Source: Acorus gramineus (taxonomy: Eukaryota; Streptophyta; Magnoliopsida; Acorales; Acoraceae). From it: a stretch of DNA of 64,000 bases. Location of the stretch: contig CM060855.1 in assembly GCA_030737835.1 (NCBI GenBank), forward strand, positions 19,428,162-19,492,161. Direction: 5' to 3'. Of the stretch, positions 19,352 to 58,500 are shown piece by piece. The translations under genes and the position numbers were made by a program. The notes below the pieces were generated by a model, which saw only the letters and a list, made by a program, of their open reading frames with translations, did not search any database and was not told where the DNA came from. The first letter of the stretch is position 1. Each line of letters starts with the position of its first letter.

Positions 19352-20449
19352 ATGAGATGTAATCAATGCGAGATTTTACTAGTTTCTTCTTTTTTAGGGT
19401 GTGTTTGGCATCTCATTTTGGCAATATTTTTATTTGCGGCTGGGCAAATAGATGGAAACGGATTACCAAACGAGATAGCTTAATTGAAAATCAAAGCATT
19501 GATTGATGTCAATTCATGCCTCGAAATCCAATTTTTTCAAAGCACTCATTGTATGCTTTTGTGGAAGCTACGAATGCAAATATGTTTTTGTCTCTTCTAA
19601 AATGATCATCTTGCCCTTCATAATAACACTTGTTTAGTGACTCCCCAACCATTCATCACTCTCGCCCCCTTCATTTTTTTTTCTCCTTCAAATGTCGATG
19701 GTATGTGAAAAAACCATTCCATTCATATGATTGATCAACAAAGGCTATATACTATCTCTATTTATGAACCCAAATAAAGCATTCCACTACCAACTCGTGT
19801 ACATAGGGGGAAACAGGACTTTGTTCGTACTCAAAGGAACGCACATTCAAAAATGGGCATCCCCCTTTGAATGATATGTTTGTGAGCATGTATTACGTGC
19901 AGGGTTAATAGTGTTCTCTGGTTAATAGTGTTCTCCCCATGAATCAATCTCAAAAAATAAAGATAAAAACAAGAAAATGAAGGCTACTAACAGGTAGGAT
20001 GACTTGGTAGTGGGAATCCTTGAAGGCACACTGACGAATGGTTTGGAAATCCTCATATCAACGACCTTTTTGACTTATCGTGGTGTGGAATTCGGCCCGG
20101 GGGGGGGGGGGGGGGGGGGGAAGGTTTGAGAAGGTGGGAACCTAACAAACCCATTTTTTCCCTATTGAAAACCCGAGACACCCCTTCTGTTTGTGAAGAT
20201 AAAATTGTAAAGTGTCATATGAGCTATATTAACACACATTGATTTGCAACCAAACATCTTATGATTTGAAATGTCAAACAGTTGCTTCTGTTATGAACAA
20301 CAAATATAATTCGTGGATTAAAAGAAAAGTAGACCACATAAGTGCATGATCAAAAAGCATGTTAAAAAGCAGCTTTATACTAAAAGCTAAAAATCAATCT
20401 GTATTTCTAAACGAGCCCTTAGTCGCTCTAAAAACAGCTTTGGGTTTTA
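19352..20449. other. Intergenic spacer with a 22-bp G run
   Basis: No genes were seen. A pure run of 22 G lies at 20099-20120. TTTGG(C/T)-type words (about 19400 and 20230) suggest debris of MITEs similar to those on either side. Open frames are short and unconvincing. Confidence 0.45.
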
Positions 20450-26114: not shown

Positions 26115-28262
26115 AAATATCATAAATCACTTAATTATCAAAATAATCACGGTTTTAAAAAAATTATTGTAACACCCTAGGCTTATACAATAAGAAATTG
26201 TTCGCTTTGCCCCTAAATGGGCTCACGGCTTTAAAACTCGTCTTGGTGTGTAAGAGCAGTGCTCACATATAAGCACAGACTATCTCCTCCCATTAGGCGA
26301 TGTGGGACTAAACACCAAACCCTCACCCACACCCAATCCATGGGCCTCTTAGGACTGTTGGGCCTCCCCCTCAATGGGTTGGGCATCACAATCATCCCAC
26401 TAATGGGCCACACGTCCTCGTGTGGGGCCGCACCCACCATCGCGAAATGGACAGGCTCTGATACCAATTGTAACGCCCTAGGCTTACACAGCAAGAAATT
26501 GTCTGCTTATCCCCTAAATGGGCTCACGGCTTTAAAACGCGTCTTGGTGTATAAGAGATGTGCTCACATATAAGCATAGACTATCTCCTCCCATTAGGCG
26601 ATGTGGGACTAAACACCAAACCCTCACCCTCACCCAATCCATGGGCCTCTTGGGACTATTGGGTCTCCCCCTCAACGGGCTAGGCGTCACAATTACTGAA
26701 CTAGTTATATGATCTAGTCAAACAGGCTACGTCACTATTTTTTTCTACTCACTTAAAATACAAACGGAGGTGGAGTTTTACTCTAAAAAAAATCGTATTA
26801 CTTTAATACTCTAGTAGTATTGGCATTTTTAAAAAATATCAACATGAAACGTCACTAGGGTTAGCGTATTGACACTTGTTTTTTTTAACATTCAAAACGC
26901 CACTGGAGTTAGCGTTTTACTCGGATCTAGACGGGTCCGTATCCAACCCACTTTTTCACTTAAAACTCTTCTTCCCCCAAACCTAAGAAAAACCTTGCCG
27001 TCCCTCTCCCCCCCACTCGAAAACCCACCCAAAATCTCCCAAATCAGTAATCACATCTAACCCCGAATCCATCTTAGCCACCCACCACAATCCCTTCTCG
27101 GCCTCTTTCACACTAAAGGACAAGTATTTATTTTTTTTGTTCTACATCATAGAATATAATATATTGGGTTTGTTAATGATTTACTCAATCCAATGGTATG
27201 TGTCTTTTAGTTTTTGGTTTTGTACTTCAATCCAATGATGTTAATGGAAGAATTTTTAACAATACTTGTTTTTATGAAAGGAGAGAAGTCATAAAACATG
27301 GATTCTCAAGTTCCAATCATTTCTTATTGTGATGGACGGTTAGTGAACAATGGTGGAAAGCCTTATTATGTGGGTGGACATCAACAAATTATTATGATAG
27401 ATAAAACAACCACTATGAGGAGTTGGTCAATTTGATTCATGAATTAACTAATACTGATAAAAATCGGTACAAATGATTTGTAGATATCTGACGTTTGCGA
27501 ATGAATGCATGAGGGTATACAATGACACAAGTATAAAAATGATGCTAAATTTATACCCTACTCATGTCACTGGTGTGGAGCTTTATTTGAAGAAAGAGGA
27601 GATCATCCAACGAGGGAGATTCTTCACATGAATGGTCAATGATGAACAAGAACCGATTAGTTGTTTTCCATTTAACCATAGTAGAACAGACATGCATACA
27701 GAGTGGGAAATATGGTAAGAAACGTGTATCCATACTTATTCAATAATGTTCATGTTTATATTTGTTACACACTAAATATGATTTATATCAACCCCCACAT
27801 GGAATCTCGTCGCATATAACATCATCATCACACATAGCTTTCATGTCAATTTGAGTCCACCTCCATCACCATTGAATGTCGATCACCCTGAATCTCCTCA
27901 TGAGAGTGCTAGAGATATGGGAGTTGAGACCAACTATGAAGAGGTGGAAGTTGACAGAGGCTCTGAACACTTGGAGTCATTGGCATATGTTAGCAATGAT
28001 TATGTTGGTTCGGATATTGATGTTGAATAGAATGCGGAAGATGAACCTCCCATTAAGCATTTCCAATCTAGGGAAGGGTTTGAATAGCGTCCTCCAAGTA
28101 TGTATGAAAAAGTTAAGACCATCACCTCCGTTGGCGATTTAACAAGCAGTTAAAAACAAATAATAAATGCTGGCGTGGCATGTTTGACCAGGTCATATGA
28201 CTAGTTCAGTATTTTTTAAAAACCGTGATTAGTTTGTTAATTAAGTGATTAATTAGTCATTT
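26115..28262 (+). mobile_element. Mutator-like (MULE) DNA transposon remnant
   Basis: Terminal inverted repeats of about 100 bp: AATCACTTAATTATCAAAAT, then CACGGTTTTAAAA, at the left (from about 26125, split by a TRIM insertion, resuming with CTGAACTAGTTATATGA at 26696). The mirrored version lies at about 28165-28255. Inside, from ATG 27298, the sequence MDSQVPIISYCDGRLVNNGG then KPYYVGGHQ is typical of the N-terminus of plant mudrA-type transposases. It shifts frame after about 38 codons. A second acidic coding-like stretch follows at about 27855-28150, with ESPHESARDMGVETNYEEVE and two stops. The catalytic domain is missing, so it is a dead internal-deletion derivative. Confidence 0.7.
26168..26691 (-). 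mobile_element. TRIM (terminal-repeat retrotransposon in miniature) inserted in the MULE terminal repeat
   Basis: Two direct repeats of 223 bp each (26168-26390 and 26469-26691) begin TGTAAC and end TCACA on the + strand, and flank only 78 bp. Read on the - strand, TGGTATCAGAGCC (26466-26454) follows the first repeat by 2 bp. This is the usual primer-binding site for initiator tRNA-Met, and a purine-rich tract (AGTGGGATGA) precedes the second repeat. ATTAT/ATTAC flanks the whole as a 5-bp target-site duplication with one difference. By my count the two repeats differ at about 21 positions (roughly 90 % identity), suggesting an age of a few million years. It carries no genes, as is normal for TRIMs. 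It split the left terminal repeat of the surrounding MULE, so it is younger than that element. Confidence 0.88.
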
Positions 28263-28263
28263 C

Positions 28264-29046
28264 AGGTCGACCGAACTTGGTCGCCATTTTAGGTTTTGGA
28301 TGACCAAACTTAGTCATCATTTCAGGTTTTGGGCGACTGAAATTGGTTGCCATTTCAGATTTTATGCGACCAAAATTAGTCGAACAGGGTCCAGAATAAT
28401 ATTTACATGTTCTTTGTAAACAAATAAATTTTTTGTGTTTATCCATCATATGCTACATTTATTCTTTTATCCAAATAACAGCTAAGGGACTGAAAAAAAT
28501 GTAAGTAGGTATACTTTTAGTTAATTGAAATTTTAATAGAAAAATATCTTATTAGACAAATATATATCATTTTTAAGCTTCGTTTGAATTCGTAGTTAAG
28601 CGGATTCTTTGTTTAAAAACAAAAAAACCTACCAGTTGATCCAAACACATTTTATATTTAGTTTTTAAAAATTTATTCGTCACTTATGTAAAAAATTATT
28701 CTTATATTCTACATTTAAGAATAATAATTAATTCTCCCTACATTACAACTCAGATTTGAAGTGGTATGAACAATCTAAGGAGGATACACGTCATGGATTA
28801 AGTTTGCAAGAAAAAAAATTAAAAACTTTATTACAAATTCTGTTCAACTAAGTTCGGTCGCCTGAAACTTGAAATGTGAACCAAGTTAGGTCGTCCAAAA
28901 TATGAAATAACGACCAAGTTCGGTCACCAAAAACTTAAAATAACAACCAAGTTTGATGGACCTGGCCAGATAGGTAGGAATAGAAAAAACACCGTTTTTT
29001 TTTATTGGTGGGGTAAGAAAAAGACTTGGTGGGGATAGACGCGTCC
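28264..29046 (+). mobile_element. Foldback-like inverted-repeat element, copy 1 (left end lost)
   Basis: Copy 1 is a direct repeat of 37624-38412, with about 93 % identity by eye. Its left arm carries three to four degenerate units of about 35 bp built on GACC.AACTT.GTC..CATTTCAGGTTTT. The right arm (about 28845-28960) carries the same units inverted. It ends GGTGGGGATAGACGCGTCC at 29046. The outermost ~78 bp of the left arm present in copy 2 are absent here, and the sequence runs straight into the MULE end. It has no coding capacity. Confidence 0.75.
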
Positions 29047-29110
29047 TATTCTATTCCATTGCCAAATACTGGGATAGAAATTCAATAACAAATAAAGCTT
29101 CATGAAATCC

Positions 29111-29511
29111 ATTGCAATCAAACCGAACCTCGTTGAACTTAAACCCTATCAAATCGATCTATTCATTATTGGAACTTTTCAGATAACACATAAACATAGA
29201 ATGTTATTCAACCACTTTTAATTAGATAATTATCATGTACACACCATTGCAATCAAACCGAACCTCATTGAATTTAAACCCTATCAAATTGATCTATTCC
29301 TGATTGGAACTTTTCAGATAACACGTAAATATGGAATATTATTCAACCACTTTTAATTATATAATAATATCATGTACCATTGCAATCAAACCGAACCTCG
29401 TTGAACTTAAACCCTATGAAATTGATCTATTCATGATTGAAACTTTTTAGATAACACATAAATATGGAATGTTATTCAACCACTTTTAATTAGATAATAA
29501 CATCATGTACA
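29111..29511. repeat. 134-bp tandem repeat, three copies
   Basis: ATTGCAATCAAACCGAACCT starts units at 29111, 29246 and 29379 (periods 135 and 133 bp). Each unit continues through TTGATCTATTCATGATTG-like and TGTTATTCAACCACTTTTAA words. The block lies between foldback copy 1 and the large array and shares no obvious sequence with either. Confidence 0.85.
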
Positions 29512-29544
29512 TATAAACAAAAAGACTTAATGGGCCTGTTGAAC

Positions 29545-32500
29545 GGGAATAAGAGATAAAGTATGTGAGAATCTCACGAAACCCATTCACAGATTCATTA
29601 AAACAACAAAAAAAAAAACGTTGACAAAGAACCAAAGAGAATCAATGGAGTATGTGAGAGTGCAGAGAACAACGTCAACCCATCAAGAAACATTGAATTC
29701 AAAACAAACAAGAGAGAGAAAGATCTGAGAGAATGAAAGAGAAAACGTGTCAACATGAAAGTCGGTCGATTGGATAGATGAAGTGACGAAACCCATGAAA
29801 CCCCATTGAAACAAAAAGAAACCAGAGACAGTGAGAGAGGGATATCCAAACCTTTCACTGAGAGACGTGAGAGTCAATCCACAGAGAGAACCTGATTGAG
29901 TAGAGATTGAAATAAAATTTAGAAACCCATTTTATTTTAAGAAATCAGAGAGGGAGAAGGTCTAAACCAGTGAGTCGGTGTAGAGACCAAACAAGCCGAG
30001 AACATGAGCAGACCAAGATGAAAGAGCAGATCAAGATATATGAACTATAAACCCACCTCGACTATTTGAAGAAAAACTAAAAAAACGGGAATGAGAGATA
30101 AAGTACGTGAGAATCTCACGAAACCCATTCAATAAATTCATTAAAACAACCAAAAAAACCAGATAGAGTAGGATCCGATTCAAACCTTGACAAAGAACCA
30201 AAGAGAATCAATGGAGTATGTGAGAGTGCAGAGAACAATGTCAACCCATTCAAACATTGAATCAAAACAAACAATAGAGAGAAAGATATGAGAGAATGAA
30301 AGAGAAAACGTGTCTACATGAAAGTCGGTCGATCAGATAGATGAAGTAACGAAACCCATGAAACCCCATTGAAACAAAAAGAAACTAGAGAGAGTGAGAG
30401 AGGGATATCCAAACCTTTCACTGAGAGACGTGATAGTCCGCTGAGCGTGAGAGTCGATCCACAGAGAGAATCTGATTGAGTAGAGATTGAAATAAAATTC
30501 AGAAACCCATTTTAAAAACCCCATTATAAGAAATCAGAGAGGGAGAAGGTCTAAACCAGTGAGTCGGTGTAGAGACCAAACAAGCCGAGAACATGAGCAG
30601 ACCAAGATGAAAGAGCAGATCAAGATATATGAACTATAAACCCACCTCGACTATTTGAAGAAAAACTAAAAAAACGGGAATGAGAGATAAAGTACGTGAG
30701 AATCTCACGAAACCCATTCAATAAATTCATTAAAACAACCAAAAAAACCAGATAGAGTAGGATCTGATTCAAACCTTGACAAAGAACCAAAGAGAATCAA
30801 TGGAGTATGTGAGAGTGCAGAGAACAACGTCAACCCATTCAAACACTGAATCAAAACAAACAATAGAGAGAAAGATATGAGAGAATGAAAGAGAAAACGT
30901 GTCTACATGAAAGTCGGTCGATCAGATAGATGAAGTAACGAAACCCATGAAACCCCATTGAAACAAAAAGAAACCAGAGACAGTGAGAGAGGGATATCCA
31001 AACCTTTCACTGAGAGACGTGAGAGTCAATCCACAGAGAGAACCTGATTGAGTAGAGATTGAAATAAAATTCAGAAACCCATTTTATTTTAAGAAATTAG
31101 AGAGGGAGAAGGTCTAAACCAGTGAGTCGATCGGCGTAGAGACCAAGCAAGCTGAAAACATGAGCAGACCAAGATGAAACAACAGATCAAGATATATGAA
31201 CTATAAACCCACCTCGACTATTTGAAGAAAAACTAAAAAAACGGGAATGAGAGATAAAGTACGTGAGAATCTCACGAAACCCATTCAATAAATTCATTAA
31301 AACAACAAAAAAAACCAGATAGAGTAGGATCTGATCCAAACCTTGACAAAGAACCAAAGAGAATCAATGGAGTATGTGAGAGTGCAGAGAACAATGTCAA
31401 CCCATTCAAACATTGAATTCAAAACAAACAATAGAGAGAAAGATATGAGAGAATGAAAGAGAAAACGTGTCTACATGAAAGTCGGTCGATCAGATAGATG
31501 AAGTAACGAAACCCATGAAACCCCATTGAAACAAAAAGAAACTAGAGAGAGTGAGAGAGGGATATCCAAACCTTTCACTGAGAGACGTGATAGTCCGCTG
31601 AGCGTGAGAGTCGATCCACAGAGAGAATCTGATTGAGTAGAGATTGAAATAAAATTCAGAAACCCATTTTAAAAACCCCATTATAAGAAACCAGAGAGGG
31701 AGAAGGTCTAAACCAGTGAGTCGGTGTAGAGACCAAACAAGCCGAGAACATGAGCAGACCAAGATGAAAGAGCAGATCAAGATATATGAACTATAAACCC
31801 ACCTCGACTATTTGAGGAAAAACTAAAAAAACAGGAATGAGAGATAAAGTACGTGAGAATCTCACGAAACCCATTCAATAAATTCATTAAAACAACCAAA
31901 AAAATAGATAGAGTAGGATCTGATCCAAACCTTGACAAAGAACCAAAGAGAATCAATGGAGTATGTGAGAGTGCAGAGAACAATGTCAACCCATTCAAAC
32001 ATTGAATCAAAACAAACAATAGAGAGAAAGATATGAGAGAATGAAAGAGAAAACGTGTCTACATGAAAGTCGATCGATCGGATAGATGAAGTGATGAAAC
32101 CCATGAAACCCCATTGAAACAAAAAGAAACCAGAGAGAGTGAGAGAGGGATATCCAAACCTTTCACTGAGAGACATGAGAGTCAATCCACAGAGAGAACC
32201 TGATTGAGTAGAGATTGAAATAAAATTCAGAAACCCATTTTATTTTAAGAAATTAGAGAGGGAGAAGGTCTAAACCAGTGAGTCGATCGGCGTAGAGACC
32301 AAGCAAGCTGAAAACATGAGCAGACAAAGATGAAACAGCAGATCAAGATATATGAACTATAAACCCACCTCGACTATTTGAAGAAAAACTAAAAAAACGG
32401 GAATGAGAGATAAAGTACGTGAGAATCTCACGAAACCCATTCAATAAATTCATTAAAACAACAAAAAAAACAGATAGAGTAGGATCTGATCCAAACCTTG

Positions 32501-35500
32501 ACAAAGAACCAAAGAGAATCAATGGAGTATGTGAGAGTGCAGAGAACAATGTCAACCCATTCAAACATTGAATCAAAACAAACAATAGAGAGAAAGATCT
32601 GAGAGAATGAAAGAGAAAACGTGTTAACATGAAAGTCGGTCGATTGGATAGATGAAGTGACGAAACCCATGAAACCCCATTGAAACAAAAAGAAACTAGA
32701 GAGAGTGAGAGAGGGATATCCAAACCTTTCACTGAGAGACGTGATAGTCCGCTGAGCGTGAGAGTCGATCCACAGAGAGAACCTGATTGAGTAGAGATTG
32801 AAAAAAAAATTCAGAAACCCATTTTAAAACCCCATTATAAGAAATCAGAGAGGGAGAAGGTCTAAACCAGTGAGTCGGTGTAGAGACCAAACAAGCCGAG
32901 AACATGAGCAGACCAAGATGAAAGAGCAGATCAAGATATATGAACTATAAACCCACCTCGACTATTTGAAGAAAAACTAAAAAAAAAGGAATGAGAGATA
33001 AAGTACGTGAGAATCTCACGAAACCCATTCAATAAATTCATTAAAACAACAAAATAAACCAGATAGAGTAGGATCTGATCCAAACCTTGACAAAGAACCA
33101 AAGAGAATCAATGGAGTATGTGAGAGTGCAGAGAACAATGTCAACCCATTCAAACATTGAATCAAAACAAACAATAGAGAGAAAAATATGAGAGAATGAA
33201 AGAGAAAACGTGTCTACATGAAAGTCGGTCGATCAGATAGATGAAGTAACGAAACCCATGAAACCCCATTGAAACAAAAAGAAACCAGAGAGAGTGAGAG
33301 AGGGATATCCAAACCTTTCACTGAGAGACGTGAGAGTCAATCCACAGAGAGAACCTGATTGAGTAGAGATTGAAATAAAATTCAGAAACCCATTTTATTT
33401 TAAGAAATTAGAGAGGGAGAAGGTCTAAACCAGTGAGTCGGCGTAGAGACCAAGCAAGCTGAAAACATGAGCAGACCAAGATGAAAGAGCAGATCAAGAT
33501 ATATGAACTATAAACCCACCTCAACTATTTGAAGAAAAACTAAAAAAATGGGAATGAGAGATAAAGTACGTGAGAATCTCACGAAACCCATTCAATAAAT
33601 TCATTAAAACAATAAAAAAAATCAGATAGAGTAGGATCTGATCCAAACCTTGACAAAGAACCAAAGAGAATCAATGGAGTATGTGAGAGTGCAGTGAACA
33701 ATGTCAACCCATTCAAACATTGAATCAAAACAAACAATAGAGAGAAAGATATGAGAGAATGAAAGAGAAAACGTGTCTACATGAAAGTCGGTCGATCAGA
33801 TAGATGAAGTAACGAAACCCATGAAACCCCATTGAAACAAAAAGAAACTAGAGAGAGTGAGAGAGGGATATCCAAACCTTTCACTGAGAGACGTGAGAGT
33901 CAATCCACAGAGAGAACCTGATTGAGTAGAGATTGAAATAAAATTTAGAAACCCATTTTATTATAAGAAATTAGAGAGGAGAAGGTCTAAACCAGTGAGT
34001 CGGCGTAGAGACCAAGCAAGCTGAAAACATGAGCAGACCAAGATGAAAGAGCAGATCAAGATATATGAACTATAAACCCACCTCGACTATTTGAAGAAAA
34101 ACTAAAAAAACGGGAATGAGAGATAAAGTACGTGAGAATCTCACGAAACCCATTCAATAAATTCATTAAAACAACCAAAAAAACCAGATAGAGTAGGATC
34201 CGATTCAAACCTTGACAAAGAACCAAAGAGAATCAATGGAGTATGTGAGAGTGCAGAGAACAATGTCAACCCATTCAAACATTGAATCAAAACAAACAAT
34301 AGAGAGAAAGATATGAGAGAATGAAAGAGAAAACGTGTCTACATGAAAGTCGATCGATCGGATAGATGAAGTGATGAAACCCATGAAACCCCATTGAAAC
34401 AAAAAGAAACTAGAGAGAGTGAGAGAGGGATATCCAAACCTTTCACTGAGAGACGTGATAGTCCGCTGAGCGTGAGAGTCAATCCACAGAGAGAACCTGA
34501 TTGAGTAGAGATTGAAATAAAATTTAGAAACCCATTTTAAAAACCCCATTATAAGAAATCAGAGAGGGAGAAGGTCTAAACCAGTGAGTCGGTGTAGAGA
34601 CCAAGCAAGCTGAAAACATGAGCAGACCAAGATGAAAGAGCACATCAAGATATATGAACTATAAACCCACCTCGACTATTTGAAGAAAAACTAAAAAAAC
34701 GGGAATGAGAGATAAAGTACGTGAGAATCTCACGAAACCCATTCAATAAATTCATTAAAACAACAAAAAAAACCAGATAGAGTAGGATCCGATTCAAACC
34801 TTGACAAAGAACCAAAGAGAATCAATGGAGTATGTGAGAGTGCAGAGAACAATGTCAACCCATTCAAACATTGAATCAAAACAAACAATAGAGAGAAAGA
34901 TATGAGAGAATGAAAGAGAAAACGTGTCTACATGAAAGTCGATCGATCGGATAGATGAAGTGATGAAACCCATGAAACCCCATTGAAACAAAAAGAAACT
35001 AGAGAGAGTGAGAGAGGGATATCCAAACCTTTCACTGAGAGACGTGATAGTCCGCTGAGCGTGAGAGTCGATCCACAGAGAGAATCTGATTGAGTAGAGA
35101 TTGAAATAAAATTCAGAAACCCATTTTAAAAACCCCATTATAAGAAACCAGAGAGGGAGAAGGTCTAAATCAGTGAGTCGGCATAGAGACCAAGCAAGCT
35201 GAGAACATGAGCAAACCAAGATGAAAGAGCAGATCAAGATATATGAACTATAAACCCACCTCGACTATTTGAGGAAAAACTAAAAAAACAGGAATGAGAG
35301 ATAAAGTACGTGAGAATCTCACAAAAAAAGAAACTAGAGAGAGTGAGAGAGGGATATCCAAACCTTTCACTGAGAGACGTGAGAGTCAATCCACAGAGAG
35401 AACCTGATTGAGTAGAGATTGAAATAAAATTCAGAAACCTATTTTATTTTAAGAAATTAGAGAGGGAGAAGGTCTAAACCAGTGAGTCGTCGTAGAGACC

Positions 35501-37535
35501 AAGCAAGCTGAAAACATAAGCAGGCGAAGATGAAACAGCAGATCAAGATATATGAACTACAAACCCACCTCAACTATTTGATGAAAAACTAAAAAAATGG
35601 GAATGAGAGATAAAGTACGTGAGAATCTCACGAAACCCATTCAATAAATTCATTAAAACAATAAAAAAAATCAGATAGAGTAGGATCTGATCCAAACCTT
35701 GACAAAGAACCAAAGAGAATCAATGGAGTATGTGAGAGTGCAGTGAACAATGTCAACCCATTCGAACATTGAATCGAAACAAACAATAGAGAGAAAGATG
35801 TGAGAGAATGAAAGAGAAAACGTGTCTACATGAAAGTCGGTCGATGAGATAGATGAAGTAACGAAACCCATGAAACCCCATTGAAACAAAAAGAAACTAG
35901 AGAGAGTGAGAGAGGGATATCCAAACCTTTCACTGAGAGATGTGAGAGTCAATCCACAGAGAGAACCTGATTGAGTAGAGAATGAAATAAAATTCAGAAA
36001 CCCATTTTATTTTAAGAAATTAGAGAGGGAGAAGGTCTAAACCAGTGATTCGGCGTAGAGACCAAACAAGCCGAGAACATGAGCAGACCAAGATGAAAGA
36101 GCAGATCAAGATATATGAACTATAAACCCACCTCGACTATTTGAAGAAAAACCCTTTCACTGAGAGACGTGATAGTCCGCTGAGCGTGAGAGTCGATCCA
36201 CAGAGAGAATCTGATTGAGTAGAGATTGAAATAAAATTCAGAAACCCCCAAGCAAGCTGAGAACATGAGCAGACCAAGATGAAAGTGCAGATCAAGATAT
36301 ATGAACTATAAACCCACCTCGACTATTTGAAGAAAAACTAAAAAAACGGGAATGAGAGATAAAGTACGTGAGAATCTCACGAAACACATTCTATAAATTC
36401 ATTAAAACAACCAAAAAAACAGATAGAGTAGGATCTTATCCAAACCTTGACAAAGAACCAAAGAGAATCAATGGAGTATGTGAGAGTGCAGAGAACAATG
36501 TCAACCCATTCAAACATTGAATCAAAACAAACAATAGAGAGAAAGATATGAGAGAATGAAAGAGAAAACGTGTCTACATGAAAGTCGATCGATCGGATAG
36601 ATGAAGTGATGAAACCCATGAAACCCCATTGAAACAAAAAGAAACTAGAGAGAGTGAGAGAGGGATATCCAAACCTTTCACTGAGAGACGTGATAGTCCG
36701 CTGAGCGTGAGAGTCGATCCACAGAGAGAATCTGATTGAGTAGAGATTGAAATAAAATTCAGAAACCCATTTTAAAAACCCCATTATAAGAAACCAGAGA
36801 GGGAGAAGGTCTAAATCAGTGAGTCGGCATAGAGACCAAGCAAGCTGAGAACATGAGCAAACCAAGATGAAAGAGCAGATCAAGATATATGAACTATAAA
36901 CCCACCTCGACTATTTGAGGAAAAACTAAAAAAACAGGAATGAGAGATAAAGTACGTGAGAATCTCACGAAACCCATTCAATAAATTCATTAAAACAACC
37001 AAAAAAATAGATAGAGTAGAATCCGATCCAAACCTTGACAAAGAACCAAAGAGAATCAATGGAGTATGTGAGAGTGCAGAGAACAACGTCAACCCATTCA
37101 AACACTGAATCAAAACAAACAATAGAGAGAAAGATCTGAGAGAATGAAAGAGAAAACGTGTCTACATGAAAGTTGATCGATCGGATAGATGAAGTGACGA
37201 AACCCGTGAAACCCCATTGAAACAAAAAGAAACTAGAGAGAGTGAGAGAGGGATATCCAAACCTTTCACTGAGAGACGTGATAGTCCGCTGAGCGTGAGA
37301 GTCGATCCACAGAGAGAACCTGATTGAGTAGAGATTGAAATAAAATTCAGAAACCCATTTTAAAAACCCCATTATAAGAAATCAGAGAGGGAGAAGGTCT
37401 AAACCAGTAAGTCGGCGTAAAGAGCAAGCAAGGTAAGGTGAGCCGAGAACATGAGCAGATCAAGACGAAAGAGCAGATCAAGATGAATGAACTATAAACC
37501 CACCTTGAAACTATTTGAAGAAAAACTAAAAAAAC
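29545..37535. repeat. 8-kb satellite-like tandem array, about 14 units of 563-590 bp
   Basis: Using the anchor GGAATGAGAGATAAAGTA, units start at 29545, 30087, 30676, 31243, 31833, 32399, 32987, 33550, 34112, 34701, 35290, 35599, 36348 and 36936. Most periods are either 588-590 or 562-567 bp. The long form has an extra GATAGTCCGCTGAGCG segment and AAAACCCCATTATAAG; the short form lacks both. Units are about 93-98 % alike by eye. The first and last units are the most diverged. A 309-bp unit and a 749-bp unit mark a rearranged stretch (35290-36348). Open frames on the - strand recur because the units repeat. They are low-complexity, vary in length and match no family, so no CDS is called. Confidence 0.95.
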
Positions 37536-37545
37536 AAAGAATTAA

Positions 37546-38412
37546 GGGCGCGGCTATCCCCACCAAACATTTCACTTAATCCACCATAAAAAAAAACCGG
37601 TGTTTGGCTGTTCCCACCAATCTAGGTCGACCGAACTTGGTCGCCATTTTAGGTTTTGGATGACCAAACTTAGTCATCATTTTAGGTTTTGGGCGACTAA
37701 AATTAGTTGCCATTTCAGGTTTTAGGCGACCGAAATTAGTCGAACAGGGTCCAGAATTATATTTACATGTTCTTTGTAATCAAATAAATTTTTTGTGTTT
37801 ATCCATCATATTTTACATTTATTCTTTTATCCAAATAACAGCTAAGGGACTGAAAAAAATGTAAGTAGATATACTTTCAATTAATTCAATTTTTTGTAGA
37901 AAAATATCTTATTAGACAAATATATATCATTTTTAAGCTTTGTTTGAATTCGTAGTTAAGCGGATTCTTTGTTTAAAAACAAAAAAAAAACCTATCAGTT
38001 GATCCAAACACATTTTATATTTAGCTTTTAAAAATTTGTCCGTCACTTATGTAAAAAAATTGTTCTTATGTTCTACATTAAAAAATAATAATTGATTCTC
38101 CCTACATTACAACTCAGACTTGGAGTGACATGAAAGATCCAAGGAGGATACATGTCATGAGATTAAGTTTCCAAGAAAAAAATTAAAAACTTTATTACAA
38201 ATTCTGTTCGACTAAGTTCAGTCGCCCGAAACCTGAAATGGCGACCAAGTTAGGTCGCCCAAAATATGAAATGACAATCAAGTTCAGTCACCGAAAACTT
38301 AAAACGATGGCCAAGTTTAGTCAACTTGGCCGGATCGGTGGGAATAGAAAAAACACCATTTTTTTTTTGATTGGTGGGGTAAGAAAAAAACTTGGTGGGG
38401 ATAGACGCGCCC
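37546..38412 (+). mobile_element. Foldback-like inverted-repeat element, copy 2 (both ends present)
   Basis: The left end GGGCGCGGCTATCCCCACC and the right end GGTGGGGATAGACGCGCCC (38412) are inverted repeats. The inverted homology continues inward for about 200 bp per arm, with a modular build of roughly 35-bp subrepeats (GACC.AACTT.GTC). The AT-rich middle is about 450 bp. Long modular arms and no transposase suit a foldback or MULE-derived non-autonomous DNA element. No clean target-site duplication was found (left flank AAGAATTAA, right flank AATCTCAAA). Confidence 0.75.
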
Positions 38413-39865
38413 AATCTCAAAATCTCAGCCGTCCAAGTGTACCATCCATCTTTGGTGGGTTTTTCTTTTCCATGCAAAAATGAAGTCATATTGCCTACAT
38501 CTTTGAGTGTCATCTTTTGATGCAACTTTAGAATTGCAAATGAAATAATATACAAAATTCAGACCATACTTGTATTTATTTTTTTAAATAATAAAAATCA
38601 TTTAACAATATACATGTTTTGTTAAAATGTGTATATTATTTCATTTCGAGTTAAATAAATTTATTTTTAATAAATGTAAGAAAAATTTAATAAAATATAT
38701 ATATCGTTAGAACTGTAATTTGGACTATAAAAAAAAAAGAGTGTAATAGTGCCTAACAAATAAATGGGACATTGTTCTAACTTACTCTCTCCTCTCAATG
38801 TTTAATTGTTTAATTTTTATAGTCTCACAATCACCATAATCATTTTTTTTATTAACAAAACTAAAGAACCGCATATACTATCGCATATACTCTATGCAGT
38901 ACGCTAACCGCAAAGTGGAAACAAATTGGAGGGTGTGCAAATTGGAGGGATGTGCAAACAAATTCGCTTAAATTAGAAAGACTTGCAAATTTGATGGGTG
39001 TGCAAATAGATTTGAAGGGAGCAAAAAGAAACACAATTTATTGAAAGGAACACATTATATACAATTTTTTTTTTGGTCCTCAAATGTTTTGAATTTTAAA
39101 AAAATAGTATACATTAATTTATATGTTTTTATAAAAAATAAATAAAATATATATTTCAATAAATTGTATAGATCTATTTATAAAAACATAAATTTTTTAA
39201 TAAATTAAATATCAATACAATTGAGGCTGTAAATAAAAGTTGCATAACAAAGCTCTTCTGAAAAAAAAAAACAACAAAAAATAGTCATTTATTGATCTAC
39301 GCAAGAGAAAATCCAAAATTCTCAATCACTCACCCTTGACAAAGACAACTAAGGGAGCTTCAAAAAATTTCTTTTCAATAAGAACCTTAAGTGTGAACGG
39401 GAGAGAGAGGAGAACACAAATAAAAGATGAAAATATGAACAAAAGTAAAAAATAAAATAAAATATAATCTCATTGAATGGAAGAACCCATAAATAATATT
39501 TTAACTAATATGAGGAATTCTAATAAATTCAAATAATTCAAAAATCTAAAAATAATTCAGAATTTATTGTAAACCCGGAATTAATTTTCTCAAAAAAGAA
39601 AAACATTTATTATTGATTCATGCCAGAGAAAATCCTCACCCACTCACATGACAAAGACAACAAACAGAGCTCCAAAAAAATTTCTTTTCAACGAGGACCG
39701 ACCAAACGATGAGCCTCTCTTATTGAACGGTCAAGATTTGATGATCGATAAAATAAGGAAACCAAATCTGGACCAACCGTGCCCTTCATTTTTTTGCGCC
39801 AAAGAAACAGAAAGAACATGAGATTACCCACAAATGCAGCTTTACTTTATATTTGGTGGAACACT
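38413..39865. other. AT-rich spacer with a diverged duplication
   Basis: A block of about 120 bp, with the words GAGAAAATCC, GACAAAGACAAC and GAGCT(T/C)CAAAAAA, occurs near 39280-39395 and again near 39600-39705. A small local repeat built on GTGTGCAAA lies at 38930-39015. Nothing coding was seen. Confidence 0.5.
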
Positions 39866-57539: not shown

Positions 57540-58500
57540 TGTATTTAGGGCACCACCCTCCCCTTCTCACCAACCCAGGTAATTGGCCGGGTCAATCCAC
57601 CACCCAAATCCAAAACAAACATATCCAGCCCGTTGGCCCACACATATCCGACAATTAGAAGATCTCGAGTCAGAGTTGGGGCCAAATCCCCACAACTTAT
57701 ATGTTCTGATTTTGTGTCATCAATCCAAAGATCACATAATCCCCCAAGGGCTTTTTTGTAGATCATCTCCTCCCTGTGTTTTTGATGTTCCAGATGGATC
57801 GCCAGTGACAATCACCATCCAATAGGAGGAGAATGGGAGCGGACAGATCAGACAACCCAAATCCGGTAGGCCGATTTTTGTCCCCTCTAGGGACCTTGAG
57901 ATATAGTATGTCAACTCATCATTCGTTGGATTATGTTGCGGCTGAACCTGTTGAGCATGATTAAAATCTTCTTAGCAGAGATGATTTGTGCATTCCTTGG
58001 CCAATGCAATAATAGCCCGACAGACAATAAGAAGAGGTGTAACATGTTCATGATGAAATATCTAATGCTTTCTAGCTTTCCAAATATGCCAAAGCATAGA
58101 AGCAAAGAGAACTTGTGTTAGAAGCCATTCTCCAATCTTCCAGATTAAACATTTGCCTCCAGGACTCTACAATCCATAAACACAACTCCAACAATCCGCT
58201 GCATAAACACATTATGCAAACAAATGCCTTGTCAGTACCATCAGTATTGAACTGCACAGTCTATGAATCGAACTGCATAGCCAATTGTTGGTACATATGT
58301 TACTCTCTGTACAGTTCGATTCACAGGCTATGCAGTTCGATACTGATGGTACTGTCGAACTGCATAGCCAATTGTTGGTACATATGTTACTCTCTGTACA
58401 GTTCGATTCACAGGCTATGCAGTTCGATACTGATGGTACTGATGATATTCAAGCCTAACTGGATCCGGGCCCAGACATCTTCAGCCATAAGTACAAACTT
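57540..58500 (-). mobile_element. LINE ORF2 C-terminal scraps, interrupted by a palindromic MITE
   Basis: On the - strand, broken frames between about 58200 and 57900 read like the W-x-I-W-K-x-R and following region of plant LINE ORF2 tails (GIFGKLESIRYFIMN, LLLHWPRNAQIISAKKIL). Frame changes and stops are frequent. The adjoining 57540-57850 may belong to the same relic. The MITE at 58232-58441 lies inside it. Confidence 0.45.
58232..58441. mobile_element. Palindromic MITE, copy B, with a duplicated arm
   Basis: CAGTACCATCAGTATTGAAC at the left is mirrored by GATACTGATGGTACTG at the right. The unit from TCGAACTGCATAGCC to GATGGTACTG occurs twice in tandem (58268 and 58355, 87 bp apart, nearly identical). 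Within each unit TGCATAGCC and GGCTATGCA face each other. It is homologous to copy A at 41849-42010. Confidence 0.85.

Follow-up and report, generated by a model that had tools for sequence, protein, structure and literature searches.

Local tandem array of an intergenic sequence between two probably independent insertions of a common MULE-type element in Acorus gramineus

The DNA analyzed here (64,000 nucleotides, in the following termed the window) covers positions 19428162-19492161 of contig C9 of Acorus gramineus, and the genome searched comprised 398.6 Mb in 137 contigs. The window contains a tandem array on the forward strand (29546..37545) with 14 head-to-tail units, including an internally deleted one of 309 bp (U11) and a chimeric one of 749 bp (U12). 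The original prediction of approximately 14 units of 563-590 bp in 8 kb was right in number and extent, whereas only ten of the 14 units have a length of 562-590 bp; the array-edge unit U01 has 542 bp, and the last unit, U14, comprises 609 bp up to position 37545 (a cut of 611 bp takes in 2 bp of the adjoining transposon end). Pairwise comparison of 13 units, with U11 left out, gave a mean identity of 96.3% (range 94.0-99.0%, 78 pairs, gaps excluded), and repeat length and identity of the array are beyond chance. The unit was rejected as a gene: two minus-strand open frames examined gave no Pfam match, and neither of the commonest unit lengths (563 and 589) is divisible by three. Elsewhere in the window, an 87-bp unit occurs twice with 100% identity (58268-58441), probably as a very recent duplication, and a run of 22 G (20099-20120) is possibly a weak spot of assembly or sequencing.

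The array is bracketed by two direct copies of the same inverted-repeat element, referred to as MULE-L (28264..29046, forward strand) and MULE-R (37546..38412, forward strand). Identity and common orientation of the two copies were correctly predicted; the right copy, however, begins at 37546 and not at 37624, which adds a 78-bp terminal part. MULE-R is full length with GGGCGCG-type sequence at both ends and is inserted after ...AAGAATTAA, at a distance of 0 bp from the last unit. MULE-L lacks its left 78 bp, and its intact right end abuts the host sequence TATTCTATT approximately 0.5 kb from the array. The predicted bracketing therefore holds with the qualification that the left copy ends at 29046 and is separated from the array by host intergenic sequence (29047..29545, forward strand), which includes three tandem copies of a 133-bp repeat (29109..29510, forward strand) that is distinct from the array unit. 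The left part of this intervening sequence is homologous to C7:19219287-19219436 (92%) and C5:19001648-19001785 (88%), and the 133-bp sequence is present on C5 and, as one copy, on C7.

Full copies of the bracketing family have a length of approximately 867 bp and GGGCGCG-type sequence at both ends. A search of the genome with 37540-38420 yielded 914 first-look candidates, 40 of which were scored; the best matches of the 39 scored places besides the query were 87-93% identical to it. The terminal inverted repeats of MULE-R, with GGGCGCG ends, match in 158 of 222 aligned columns (arms of approximately 210 bp), and 33-bp tandem repeats are present at 3.3-3.5 copies per arm in both MULE-L and MULE-R. 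Both window copies have the long inverted arms of short tandem repeats that characterize foldback elements, and the predicted term 'foldback-like' is fair for the arms, whereas 9-bp target duplications and the GGGCGCG ends point to a non-autonomous element of the MULE type. Perfect duplications of 9-10 bp flank 15 of 29 other loci, six have a duplication with one mismatch and eight have none, in a tally for which flanks were scanned over shifts, without shuffled control, and in which two loci, L020 and L030, are probably non-independent. These two copies (L030, C9:2705975; L020, C9:2811809) lie approximately 106 kb apart with nearly alike left flanks, are sisters with short branches in the MULE tree and are probably part of a segmental duplication. 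The 9-bp (8-11 bp) target duplication of MULEs is thus found in the family and is missing from MULE-R itself. The link between 9-bp target duplications with inverted ends and Mutator-like elements is established knowledge, which we take to extend to the 867-bp family; the latter is probably a non-autonomous, Mutator-like (MULE) element.

Matches to the array unit were found at three places in the genome (three of three first-look candidates scored), namely in the C9 array, at C6:8290337-8290863, where the unit is present once, and at approximately 19.22 Mb on C7, where a fragment of it lies. C9 is the only one of them with the unit in array form, so that one 8-kb array, one single unit and one fragment were found rather than the long arrays or many loci of a satellite family. 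The C6 unit is 83% identical to the query unit by BLAST; compared with the 13 units, and leaving gaps out of account, its identity is 87.6-90.4%. Its position is upstream of an open frame that encodes a DUF7086 domain (PF23324, E 3.1e-44). A relic of such a gene beside the array was considered and rejected, as the window gave no DUF7086 match by tblastn and C9, C7 and C5 gave no PF23324 match; a weak match of 32 residues was obtained on C7 (E 0.005). C6 and C7 have approximately 850 bp left of the unit in common (83% identity), and at both loci a tandem duplication with a period of approximately 0.4 kb is present in the DNA to the left of the unit (L056 3471-4323; L057 3157-4281). The first 100 bp of this duplicated DNA recur at C6:8269556-8269955, near another DUF7086 match. 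No match to MULE-L or MULE-R was present in the 9 kb fetched around each of the C6 and C7 copies, which indicates that MULEs need not cause duplication. In turn, the matches of the unit include no place among the 29 other MULE loci that were fetched. In the original prediction, one option had been a local array grown after transposon capture: the local array is retained, whereas capture conflicts with the C6 unit and with the unit's absence from these 29 loci.

At the left junction, the window reads ...CGCGTCC, the end of MULE-L, followed by TATTCTATTCCATTGCC; C6 reads ...CCAATCCATCA followed by the same TATTCTATTCCATTGCC, and C7 deviates from this at three of 17 bases. Window, C6 and C7 are homologous from 29047 on, and leftward C6 and C7 are homologous to each other where the window has MULE-L. 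At the right junction, GAATTAA is the last sequence common to window and C6; GGGCGCG follows in the window while C6 continues. Homology stops exactly at both inner MULE ends, and judged from these junctions the MULEs landed next to an already existing unit that was not carried by them.

The outer sides gave a different picture. The 9-mers next to MULE-R are unlike each other (AAGAATTAA inner, AATCTCAAA outer), i.e., there is no target duplication. When three outer-flank stretches were compared with C6, C7 and C5, two of the nine comparisons gave matches, all of which had a length of only 40-103 bp (73-85%) and lacked collinearity with the junctions. A counterpart of the C6 left flank was not found on C9 (six of six candidates scored), nor was the C6 right flank found elsewhere in the genome, save for an 86-bp repeat beside itself; the first 138 bp to the right of MULE-R are single-copy. 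As independent insertion alone predicts matching duplications and the outer flanks are foreign, at least one further rearrangement is required. The left outer flank contains part of another dispersed repeat (27700..28105, forward strand), for which 40 of 1263 first-look candidates were scored and the nine best places elsewhere are 80-87% identical. It also contains, on the reverse strand, an inverted counterpart (28211..28253) of 26122-26164, 90.7% identical over 43 bp, which apparently marks where a further inverted-repeat element ends, next to the truncated side of MULE-L. Within one arm of the element delimited by these matching ends, 26166-26693 comprises two 227-bp copies (91% identical) whose starts are 301 bp apart. 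Beyond MULE-R, 38553-38712 belongs to a short dispersed repeat that is very numerous, with 2533 first-look candidates, of which 40 were scored.

MULE-L and MULE-R are 90.8% identical over 790 aligned columns by BLAST, and 91.4% over 782 columns. The 29 other family copies have a mean pairwise identity of 90.8% (range 86.4-97.7%); this is an approximate comparison, as these copies are the best matches to MULE-R and their mutual identity is probably biased upward. The identity of the two window copies is typical of other pairs, and they look like independent insertions. An origin as mutual duplicates was rejected on account of the value of 91.4% versus the family mean and of the tree positions, the two being non-sister in a star-like tree with weak support; MULE-L is also absent from the 40 places scored (of 914 candidates) for MULE-R. 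Two MULEs as tight as these (0 bp and 0.5 kb) are unlikely by chance at any given locus. Many MULEs favor DNA upstream of genes, and given the gene-upstream position of the C6 unit the chance of a close bracketing would rise. Approximately ten same-orientation pairs within 9.4 kb are expected genome-wide if the 914 candidates (40 scored) are real and evenly spread. One other direct pair was present among the 40 scored places (C8:9729077 and C8:9736731, 7.7 kb apart) and served as a control; it encloses no head-to-tail array and has diverged repeated segments 2.2-5.2 kb apart instead.

With regard to the growth of the array, U01 and the C6 unit both lack a stretch of 23-26 bp and both have the CCATCAAGA variant, and among the 13 units U01 resembles C6 most closely in its 5' part (95.1% versus 91.3-93.2%). 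Such traits common to the edge unit and C6 fit inward growth of the array, with its edge lagging behind. Against this argument, C7 has the 23-26 bp stretch, and in overall identity to C6 U02 (90.4%) slightly exceeds U01 (90.0%). At the opposite edge, an insertion in U14 sits where C6 has one, but the 3' part of U14 resembles C6 less than that of any other of the 13 units (83.0% versus 87.4-90.3%). Identity between units is almost flat with distance (0.956-0.968 at lags 1-11, lower only at lags 12-13 with three pairs), so that no clear neighbor effect is apparent. On mixed evidence from edge units and lags, we infer unequal exchange or gene conversion as the process that amplified and homogenized the array. 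U11 and U12 show illegitimate deletion or fusion.

The original prediction had named a composite mobile unit as one of two readings of the locus. In the form considered here, the two outer ends, that of MULE-L on the left and that of MULE-R on the right, would have acted as the ends of one large element and moved the array from a C6-like site to C9, with later loss of the MULE-L end; this we regard as very improbable. C6-like inner flanks next to foreign outer ones would be in line with such a transposition, as would the unlike 9-mers beside MULE-R, which look as if the outer side were the new target site; however, eight of 29 other family copies are likewise devoid of a recognizable duplication, and its absence is nothing special. 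The array occurs at one locus only (three of three first-look candidates scored) and foldback copies are scattered elsewhere (40 of 914 scored), an outcome proposed beforehand as a sign of coincidental bracketing. Conversely, the expected support, other loci with the same bracketed order and target duplications outside the outer ends, did not emerge from the genome search. AATCTCAAA was not found at the left edge, where the outer end of MULE-L is missing, and AATCTCAAAA occurs just once upstream in the window, at 19946 and away from MULE sequence, which leaves the 9-mer with no left counterpart. With AATCTCAAA+GGGCGCG as search pattern and up to two mismatches, 161 places were obtained (75 forward, 86 reverse) versus 24 for the reversed-pattern control; among the matches listed (approximately 100 of 161), 17 had one mismatch and 15 of these read AATCTCAAAGGACGCG. 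The latter places presumably belong to another repeat, and on that account the pattern test is weak. With neither a second array, an outer 9-bp duplication, a MULE-L end upstream in the window nor a partner copy detectable by pattern, the composite transposon is not supported.

A possible, though rather doubtful, addition to the preferred reading of a local array between independent insertions concerns the outer flanks: ectopic recombination or an aberrant MULE insertion may have removed the original ones, so that MULE-R would lie between two different target sites whose intervening DNA was deleted. A citrus MULE, for which dissimilar 9-bp duplications separated by 2 Mb are described at a deletion (PMC4334395), provides a precedent, and the unlike flanks of MULE-R match its pattern. 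Yet the closest relatives of MULE-R revealed no clean switch along the element in windows of 150 columns, no mismatch-free AATCTCAAA+GGGCGCG place occurred among the matches listed, and, apart from the short repeat at its side, the C6-like right flank does not recur in the genome. A further reading, in which the tandem repeat belongs to the interior of the MULE and was lost from most copies of the family, in the way that foldback arms seed satellites, is extremely unlikely. Foldback arms are indeed known as satellite sources from Tetris (PMC4079207), but the unit lies outside the ends of both elements, the internal repeats of the MULE measure 33 bp, and unit matches are confined to C9, C6:8.29 Mb and C7:19.22 Mb, with none at 29 other MULE loci.

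In Tetris, a foldback transposon of Drosophila virilis, the unit of the TIR-220 satellite is part of the transposon arm (PMC4079207); an inverted-repeat transposon associated with kilobase-size tandem arrays is common to that system and the C9 locus, whereas the C9 unit lies outside the element and is also found without a MULE. Tm1 of Meloidogyne (PMC3169594), a Mutator/foldback element whose arms are composite and whose duplications mostly measure 9 bp, resembles the bracketing family in its duplications, its composite inverted repeats with internal tandem repeats and its MITE-like forms; the differences are the plant host and internal repeats of 33 bp here versus 13-15 bp in Tm1. Satellites of Lathyrus derive from tandem repeats inside LTR retrotransposons (PMC7004042) and are likewise plant tandem arrays expanded from shorter precursors, but differ from the single 8-kb locus on C9, in whose unit no part of a retrotransposon was noticed. 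No plant locus with the same layout was found in the literature searched, which does not prove its absence.

Taken together, the locus is best explained, at a probability of roughly 0.8, as a local tandem array of an intergenic sequence between two copies of a common non-autonomous MULE-type element that inserted independently of each other. For the order of events, the amplifying process and the cause of the changed outer flanks we infer the following scenario. An intergenic fragment, of the kind kept singly upstream of the C6 DUF7086 gene, would have been present at the C9 locus, where two members of the high-copy MULE-type family would have inserted to the left and right of the unit in independent events. 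Tandem duplication of the unit and, separately, of its 133-bp neighbor would have followed, and the array may have expanded and become homogenized through unequal exchange or gene conversion, accompanied at times by illegitimate deletions. A later rearrangement would have cut MULE-L short and exchanged the outer flanks for others. No function is required for these steps, as neutral turnover of repeats is enough to account for them. Single-copy paralogues reveal the state before amplification and make it possible to distinguish bracketing by transposons from a causal contribution of transposons to the origin of the array. Direct flanking copies of a family with hundreds of members are poor ground for assuming composite mobility, and the C9 locus belongs to the ordinary repeat landscape and appears to be a local array rather than a new mobile unit.
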